A DNA stretch of 34,424 nt from Planctomycetales bacterium. GTDB lineage: Bacteria > Planctomycetota > Planctomycetia > Pirellulales > S012-138. The position numbers and the translations under genes are program-made. The stretch lies in assembly GCA_015488215.1 (NCBI GenBank), contig WFOE01000191.1, positions 1 to 34,424 on the forward strand, read 5' to 3'. Every line of letters begins with the position of its first letter. Position 1 is the stretch's first letter. Under the pieces are notes generated by a model. The model was not told the DNA's origin and did no database searches. It was given only the letters and a program-made list of their open reading frames with translations. Shown here in pieces: positions 16,782-18,047 of the stretch.

Positions 16782-17339
16782 CTACTGGCCCTGGGAGCCG
16801 CCACTCAAATCGCGTAGCACCTGGCGGATTTGCTCGTGGTCGGGCATCTGAGCCTGGTTGCGAGGGCGATGGGCCCAGCGAAGCACTCCCTGGGTATCGA
16901 CGACGAACGTGCCGGGCATCTGCCGCACGTTGCCCTGGGGACGGCCCAGTCCGCCCCGCAGCACCGCCTTGAGCCCCGCCCACCACACGGCCGGACCGGC
17001 AATCTGCCACCAGGAACCGGCCCCCAGACCGAAGGCGCGGTATCCTTTTCGTTCCGGATCGGCCAGCAAGTCGAACGGGAGGCGAAACTGCCGGTGGAAC
17101 TGGCCGGTGGGTTCCACGCCCGCCGGCGAGATGACCACCACCTGGCCGCCGCTTTGCCGGAACTGGTCGTATTCCTCACGCACGCGGACCACGTGCTCGC
17201 GGCAAAACGGTCAGCCCAAATGACGCACGAAAAACAGCACGGCCGGTTCGTGCTGCCAGTAACGGGCAAGCGGCACCGGTTCGCCAAGCTGGTTCGCCAG
17301 CGTTACTTCCGGCACTTGTTCTCCAAGTTCGAGCGGCAT
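16782..17339 (-). CDS. Peroxiredoxin-like selenoprotein (AhpC-TSA_2 type, UxxC), in-frame TGA
   Basis: A 185-aa thioredoxin-fold protein read through one in-frame TGA at 17211-17213. Before the TGA comes VLFFVRHLG, after it PFCREHV, so the motif is U43-P-F-C46 where AhpC-TSA_2 relatives have CxFC. Downstream parts also fit the family: VVVISPAG, FRLPFDLLADPERKGYRAFG, and MPGTFVVDTQGVLRWAHR. Homology on both sides in one frame argues against a pseudogene. A SECIS-like hairpin follows (17177-17199). The expected role is peroxide or disulfide reduction in the cytoplasm, with Sec as the attacking residue. Start: ATG at 17339, inside a 28-bp tandem duplication. A standard caller would report only a truncated GTG frame from 17192 lacking the active site. 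It diverges from another TGA-containing gene. Confidence 0.87.
17177..17199 (-). promoter_or_regulatory. Putative bacterial SECIS element of the peroxiredoxin-like gene
   Basis: On the minus strand GCACG (17196-17192) and CGUGC (17184-17180) pair around the loop UGGUCCG. Beyond an A/G mismatch, G-U and C-G pairs extend the stem. The loop contains GGUC, as in the E. coli fdhF SECIS. Twenty nt separate the UGA from GGUC, within the usual bacterial range, and the element lies inside the coding region as expected. Confidence 0.75.
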
Positions 17340-17380
17340 GGGAGCAATCTCTAAGTTCGAGCGGCATGGGAGCAATCTCT
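17325..17380. repeat. Perfect 28-bp tandem duplication over a start codon
   Basis: Bases 17325-17352 are repeated exactly at 17353-17380. Each unit contains the minus-strand ATG and first codons of the peroxiredoxin-like gene (MPLEL). As 28 is not a multiple of three, the outer ATG (17367) reads a different frame and cannot yield the protein; only the ATG at 17339 does. Translation from the outer copy would be a decoy. It could be recent slippage or an assembly error. Confidence 0.92.
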
Positions 17381-17436
17381 GCCAAGCAGGCAAGGGGAAA
17401 ACCAAGAACACTGCGAAAGAGCAAACGCCTGGACCA

Positions 17437-17464
17437 TTGGCCTGGGCGTCGGATGCACTATACT
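17437..17464 (+). promoter_or_regulatory. Putative promoter of the AhpD-like selenoprotein gene
   Basis: TTGGCC (17437-17442) and TATACT (17459-17464) are separated by 16 bp and lie 70 nt before the ATG at 17535. The hexamers are acceptable sigma-70-type matches in GC-rich DNA. The same bases include TATAGT on the minus strand, but I find no matching -35 for the divergent gene. Confidence 0.45.
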
Positions 17465-17534
17465 CGGGAACGTGCTCGGCTGGCCACACCGTGGCGAGCC
17501 GGTTTGTCCCTGCTTTTTTTCACGGAGGTTTGCC

Positions 17535-18047
17535 ATGCCTTATGTCCCCCCGCTGCAAGACGACCAGGCTCCCGAAGCCGCCCAGCAGATGTTCCAGGCC
17601 ATCCAGCAGCAGCTTGGTGCGGTGCCGAACATCTTTCGTACCATGGCCCATCAGCCCGCCGTGCTGGAAGCGACGCTGAAGATGAACGCCGCCGTGGGCC
17701 ACGACTTGCCGGAGCTGCTGCGAGAGCTGGCCTATTTGAAAGCGTCGCTCGTCAACCAATGCCATTACTGAGTGCATTACCATAAGCTCCTCGGTCAGAG
17801 GGCTGGATTGACGGACGAACAGCTCGAAGCTCTGGAACAAGGCAACGACGAGCCGTTCGACCCGCTGCAACGACTGGTAATTCGCTACGCCGAGCAGGTA
17901 ACACGCACCACGCATCCGGAGCCGGAAGTGGCCCAAGCCTTGTGTGAGCAGCTCTCCCCGGCCCAGATGGTCGTGTTGGCCGCCACGGTGGCCTTGGCCA
18001 ATTTCACCAACCGTTTCAACCACGGGCTGGACGTGCAATTGCCCTGA
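17535..18047 (+). CDS. AhpD/CMD-like selenoprotein (CxxU), in-frame TGA
   Basis: A 170-aa carboxymuconolactone decarboxylase/AhpD-like helical protein read through one in-frame TGA at 17769-17771. The sequence around it is KASLVNQC-H-Y-U-VHYH, so the family's redox CxxC (C76-x-x-C79) is C76-H-Y-U79, with the proton-relay type His at 83. After the TGA, the second part (GLTDEQLEAL, then LQRLVIRYAEQVT, QMVVLAATVALANFTNRFNH) is the normal C-terminal half of the family, in the same frame. Start: ATG at 17535 with GGAGG seven bases upstream. A SECIS-like hairpin lies at 17785-17804. The role is presumably a thiol/selenol disulfide reductase for a peroxiredoxin, perhaps the divergent neighbour. Ordinary gene calling would split it in two. 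Confidence 0.88.
17785..17804 (+). promoter_or_regulatory. Putative bacterial SECIS element of the AhpD-like gene
   Basis: CUCCUC-type and GAGGG-type arms (17788-17792 and 17798-17802) pair around the loop GGUCA. After a bulged C at 17787, two more pairs close the stem (17785-17786 with 17803-17804). The loop carries GGUC, and 21 nt separate it from the UGA. The loop motif and spacing almost equal those of the hairpin in the neighbouring gene. Confidence 0.75.

Follow-up and report, generated by a model that had tools for sequence, protein, structure and literature searches.

A divergent pair of Prx-like and AhpD-like selenoprotein genes conserved within one planctomycete genus

The window that we analyzed, a 34,424-nucleotide stretch of a planctomycete genome, contains two adjacent genes that are transcribed away from each other, each with a single internal in-frame TGA. 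The first encodes a Prx-like protein (SelL-related redox family) of 185 amino acids and lies on the minus strand at 16782..17339, starting with ATG at 17339-17337 and ending with TAG at 16784-16782. Its TGA (17211..17213, minus strand) is codon 43 and represents Sec43 of a UPFC motif. The second gene, on the plus strand at 17535..18047 (ATG at 17535-17537, stop TGA at 18045-18047), encodes an AhpD-like protein of 170 amino acids with the CMD/AhpD fold, near TIGR01926, and its internal TGA (17769..17771, plus strand) is codon 79, Sec79 of a CHYU motif that sits within the series E64-x11-C76-x-Y78-U79-x3-H83. The terminal TGA of this gene is a true stop, as there is a TAG at that position in one relative of the same genus (G002) and the homologs end at the same LP. 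A preliminary description of this DNA had placed one in-frame TGA on the redox-motif Cys of each gene, and its coordinates proved exact. It had also supposed that standard annotation would truncate one gene and split the other, but under the standard code (table 11) both are split into two ORFs, 17211-17489 and 16782-17192 for the Prx-like gene, and 17472-17771 and 17772-18047 for the AhpD-like gene; the gene calls split at TGA are corrected here.

The divergent start codons are separated by an intergenic region of 195 bp (17340..17534) in which overlapping, oppositely oriented -10-like hexamers occur around ACTATACT (17457-17464). Two promoter-like sites were found in this region versus 0.2 expected in shuffled sequences, the sites being matches to a consensus only. 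A 28-bp tandem duplication (17320-17380) spans the Prx-like start codon, and the upstream copy of the ATG is out of frame.

A bacterial selenoprotein gene requires selA, selB, selC and selD, and the genome that holds the window (G000; 4.29 Mb in 303 contigs, 96.5% complete) has all four, the genes for which the preliminary description had proposed a search. The tRNA-Sec gene selC scored 75.3 bits against a gathering score of 47 and has the anticodon TCA, selB and selA adjoin on one contig (C165; 375.6 and 571.2 bits, respectively), and selD scored 372.3 bits. The selD gene (C147, loci L016 and L161) itself has an in-frame TGA, in the motif CAGUAGK, and is a selenoprotein gene too. In both relatives from the same genus, G001 and G002, selA was also found, although in G001 it is partial. 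Across genomes the association between these TGAs and selA is strong but imperfect, the exceptions being three genomes (G320, G123 and G102) that have selA together with Cys forms. In one further genome, G029 (92% complete), the conserved TGA occurs in a Prx-like gene (C226, L031) but no selA match was found; its genus mate G012 has selA, and the gene missing from G029 may have been lost in assembly.

Each of the three genus genomes has both TGAs at the same codons, and one of these genomes (G002) is represented by the public MAG contig JALSGI010000180.1 (Planctomycetota). In the comparisons made, omega was 0.08-0.22 on either side of the TGA, with dS of about 0.7-1.7, and the low values after the TGA indicate that the downstream codons are still under selection as protein. 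Homologs tell the same story, for in both families those that span the motif have Cys or Sec aligned with the TGA. The statement of the preliminary description that frame and homology continue past each TGA, and its expectation that Cys homologs would align with it, were borne out. A tree of Sec and Cys forms requires at least two label changes for the AhpD-like family and at least one for the Prx-like family, and does not give the direction of change, gain or loss of Sec, within the genus.

Downstream of each TGA we identified a SECIS-like hairpin. In the Prx-like gene it is GCACG-UGGUCCG-CGUGC (17180..17196, minus strand), with an apical loop that starts 19 nt past the UGA, and it folds in all three species. 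In the AhpD-like gene it is AGC-(U bulge)-CCUC-GGUCA-GAGG-GCU (17785..17804, plus strand), with the apical loop starting 21 nt past the UGA; its bulged U and GGUC loop presumably resemble those of the SECIS of E. coli fdhF. The loops of the genus copies are GGUC, or GGUU in the case of the Prx-like gene of G001. Synonymous positions within the hairpins are conserved as well. At the AhpD-like hairpin all seven of the degenerate codons whose amino acid is conserved are identical in the three species, versus 42 of 109 elsewhere (p=0.0018), and at the Prx-like hairpin the corresponding counts are 6/10 and 9/46 (p=0.016; p=0.017 in a two-species comparison). An Rfam search of the window gave no matches, and the hairpins were judged against a published structural model of the bacterial SECIS element (PMC13188914), with which both agree. 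Their 40-nt folds have energies of -10.1 to -16.0 kcal/mol. Taken together, the Sec machinery, the TGAs in three genomes, the coding constraint on both sides of them, the Cys/Sec homologs and the SECIS-like hairpins make it nearly certain that both are selenoprotein genes.

What kind of peroxiredoxin-like protein is the product of the first gene? It scored 152.1 bits with the model NF040769, "SelL-related redox protein" (143.3 bits in the genome scan), above the cut-off of 120, and the domains PF00578 and PF13911 also match it. Among known structures, its AlphaFold2 model (pLDDT 89) matches those of PrxQ/Bcp and AhpE, and the best matches are PrxQ/Bcp-like. When aligned with the PrxQ structure 2cx3, it is Cys46 that corresponds to the peroxidatic Cys, and U43 falls on the Thr/Ser three residues earlier (PxxxTxxC). 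Since U43 aligns with that residue, Sec occupies the N-terminal position of a thioredoxin-like motif, and in the model a helix starts at residue 44, immediately after it. This differs from classical Sec-containing peroxiredoxins, in which Sec is at the TxxU position, whereas here it is at the N-terminal position of UxxC. The protein is a member of the SelL-related/PrxQ-like group and not an AhpC. Its counterparts in the two genus relatives are 77% and 67% identical to it, the lower value coming from a copy truncated where its contig ends. At the TGA position, every SelL-type homolog whose alignment spans the motif has Cys or Sec, and distant matches of the PrxQ/Bcp type have Thr or Ser there, as PxxxTxxC predicts. 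The family has Sec at the same position in many other planctomycetes, with motifs such as ULPC, UVFC and UTFC; ULPC/UxPC is common in Sec members from this order, and the gene described here differs in having UPFC and in being paired with an AhpD-like gene. One relative, L119 (G157), has UVFS, in which the partner Cys is lost and Sec would act alone.

The AhpD-like protein exceeded the cut-offs of the CMD domain PF02627 (40.9 versus 23) and of TIGR00778 (38.3 versus 27.8). With TIGR01926 (peroxidase-related enzyme) it scored 64 bits, below the cut-off of 81.8, and we therefore describe it as AhpD-like, near TIGR01926. Close structural matches of its model (pLDDT 96.5) include the debrominase Bmp8, SMU.961 and the AhpD of S. 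pneumoniae. The spacing of the AhpD proton relay, E-x11-C-x-Y-C-x3-H with either Tyr or His as the third residue, is reproduced by E64, C76, Y78, U79 and H83. The relay residues of PA0269 are Glu36, Cys48, Tyr50, Cys51 and His55 (PMC3141380), and the five positions of the two proteins agree in identity and spacing, except that Sec replaces the second Cys. Identity to the proteins of the two genus relatives is 87% and 75%, and the closest homologs beyond the genus, at 42-51% identity, mostly have Cys. Sec also occurs in this family in several other planctomycetes (for instance, CHYU in G202 and CDYU in G243). In two relatives, L097 (G333) and L103 (G287), the motif is SRYU, the partner Cys having been lost, and Sec would act alone.

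In each genome of the genus the two genes are head to head and both have their TGA, with spacings of 195 bp in the window, 116 bp, and 781 bp in G002. Their surroundings are different. In the window the pair is flanked by a class III aminotransferase gene on the left and a gene for a PIN/TRAM protein on the right; in G002 there is trigger factor on the left, with a tRNA-like stretch between recognized by eye, and on the right an ORF of repeat type, unrelated and also judged by eye; in G001 the right side has an unassigned ORF and a thiamine-binding-family gene, and on the left the contig ends inside the Prx-like gene. A tblastn search with the window's neighbors against the other genus contigs gave nothing convincing. 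From these differing flanks and the absence of flank similarity in that search it follows that, in three species, the pair stayed together while its surroundings changed. The pairing is a feature of three genomes in one genus. Outside the genus, neither the 392 genomes sampled across the phylum nor the loci fetched for 397 genomes from the order gave a locus with both families, although many planctomycetes carry one or the other; flanks of 1.5-3 kb were fetched for these comparisons, and matches without fetched loci were judged by their listed contig positions. The preliminary description had raised the recurrence of the divergent pair in other planctomycetes, and among the genomes sampled the pair was seen within the genus only.

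Considering these observations, we favor, at a probability of about 0.4, the explanation that the two genes form a co-regulated pair of selenoenzymes that are reduced independently of each other. They would be transcribed divergently from the common 195-bp region and would have been retained side by side because they are induced jointly, oxidative stress being the probable trigger. Family knowledge suggests that the reactions are reduction of peroxides and/or disulfides via selenenylsulfides. In the Prx-like protein, Sec43, at the start of the active-site helix, would most likely be the nucleophile that attacks a peroxide or disulfide, and Cys46 would then close a selenenylsulfide with it. The AhpD-like protein would most likely cycle between reduced Cys76/Sec79 and the selenenylsulfide, reducing a peroxide or an oxidized partner with the assistance of a Glu64-Tyr78-His83 proton relay. 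General cellular reductants could reduce each protein, and the independent occurrence of the two families in other planctomycetes argues that neither needs the other as its reductant. We infer the substrates, co-regulation and reductants of the pair, and the idea of a shared promoter is weakened by the 781 bp between the genes in G002.

Could the AhpD-like selenoprotein instead be the dedicated reductant of its neighbor? The preliminary description had proposed a dedicated peroxide or disulfide module parallel to AhpC-AhpD, with Sec on both partners; in such a relay, functionally akin to the mycobacterial system, the AhpD-like protein would re-reduce the selenenylsulfide of the Prx-like protein. 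That part of it which concerns gene content and arrangement has stood, and a relay is possible but, we consider, the less probable reading. In its favor are the retention of the pair in three species despite differing neighbors and of the full E-x11-C-x-Y-U-x3-H relay of AhpD in the AhpD-like protein, to which can be added a second case, reported from marine metagenomes, in which selenoprotein genes of the Prx-like and AhpD-like kinds adjoin. Against it, the Prx-like partner is not AhpC, its Sec occupies the thioredoxin-like position and not the peroxidatic one, the two families are not near each other beyond the genus in the sampled planctomycetes even though many of these have one of them, and the presence of debrominase Bmp8 among the PDB neighbors of the AhpD-like protein indicates that the fold serves other substrates too. 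The likeness to the mycobacterial system consists in a Prx-fold protein together with an AhpD-fold protein that has the same catalytic relay residues; the differences are the nature of the Prx partner, Sec on both proteins, and divergent transcription. The stronger proposition, that this planctomycete genus has an all-selenium counterpart of AhpC-AhpD, a self-contained peroxide/disulfide module with Sec on both the Prx-fold partner and the AhpD-fold reductase and electrons flowing from selenium to selenium, seems unlikely to us. The pair makes selenium-to-selenium electron transfer between two small bacterial redox proteins testable.

We also consider it unlikely that the adjacency reflects merely shared ancestry or joint transfer of genes with unrelated roles and regulation. 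Such a history would fit the restriction of the pair to one genus with homologs unlinked elsewhere, the range of spacings (116 to 781 bp), and the other candidate Sec redox genes of the same genome, which sit singly on other contigs; it accords poorly with a pair that remained intact at a synonymous divergence near 1 while its flanks were replaced. The remaining notion, that the TGAs are real stops (in pseudogenes or through sequencing errors) or reflect a genome-wide reassignment, has next to no credibility and no observation in its favor, as identical TGAs in three independent genomes dispose of sequencing error, TGA still terminates genes, including the AhpD-like gene with its TAG counterpart in G002, and constraint downstream, SECIS hairpins and a full Sec machinery speak against real stops.

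Neither family is new. Selenoproteins of the UxxC Prx-like and CxxU AhpD-like kinds appear in the Sargasso Sea (PMC1088965) and GOS (PMC2398784) surveys, and a 2026 catalog includes UxxC Prx-like and TIGR01926 CxxU selenoprotein families (PMC13188914). The genes described here share with the Prx-like selenoproteins (NF040769) the UxxC motif, PF00578/PF13911 and a score above the cut-off, and with the AhpD-like/peroxidase-related selenoproteins (TIGR01926, PF02627) the domain, fold, CxxU motif and proton-relay residues. The 2008 GOS paper also has one read with neighboring Prx-like 1 and AhpD-like 2 selenoprotein genes (PMC2398784), which a review presents as operonic clustering of unknown function. 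The same two kinds of selenoprotein genes are side by side there and here, the difference being a single read there and, here, a divergent pair in three genomes of one genus whose flanks were compared. Because both families had been cataloged and the read reported, what is added is new members and a divergent pair conserved in three species rather than a new kind of protein, and an isolated metagenomic hint from a single read becomes a conserved pair in a definable genus, with coordinates, SECIS elements and Cys-only counterparts.

The organism itself looks rich in selenoproteins. We sampled the other selenoproteins of the genome by family searches and kept only those U-containing frames that coincided with family matches, a listing of all frames being mostly noise. 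Candidates were found on C263 (L155), C225 (L153, TGA at 1451, minus strand) and C16 (L154, TGA at 1227, minus strand), the product types among them being a peroxiredoxin of the Bcp type (TGGU motif, signal-like N-terminus), a UGPC protein that is Trx/Prx-like, and a redoxin whose motif is LTUPPF. A second AhpD-like gene lies on C287 (L156, minus strand, TGA at 2113); its motif is CYYU, and its TGA is followed by a hairpin in which GACCUCC pairs with GGAGGUC around a GGUC loop.
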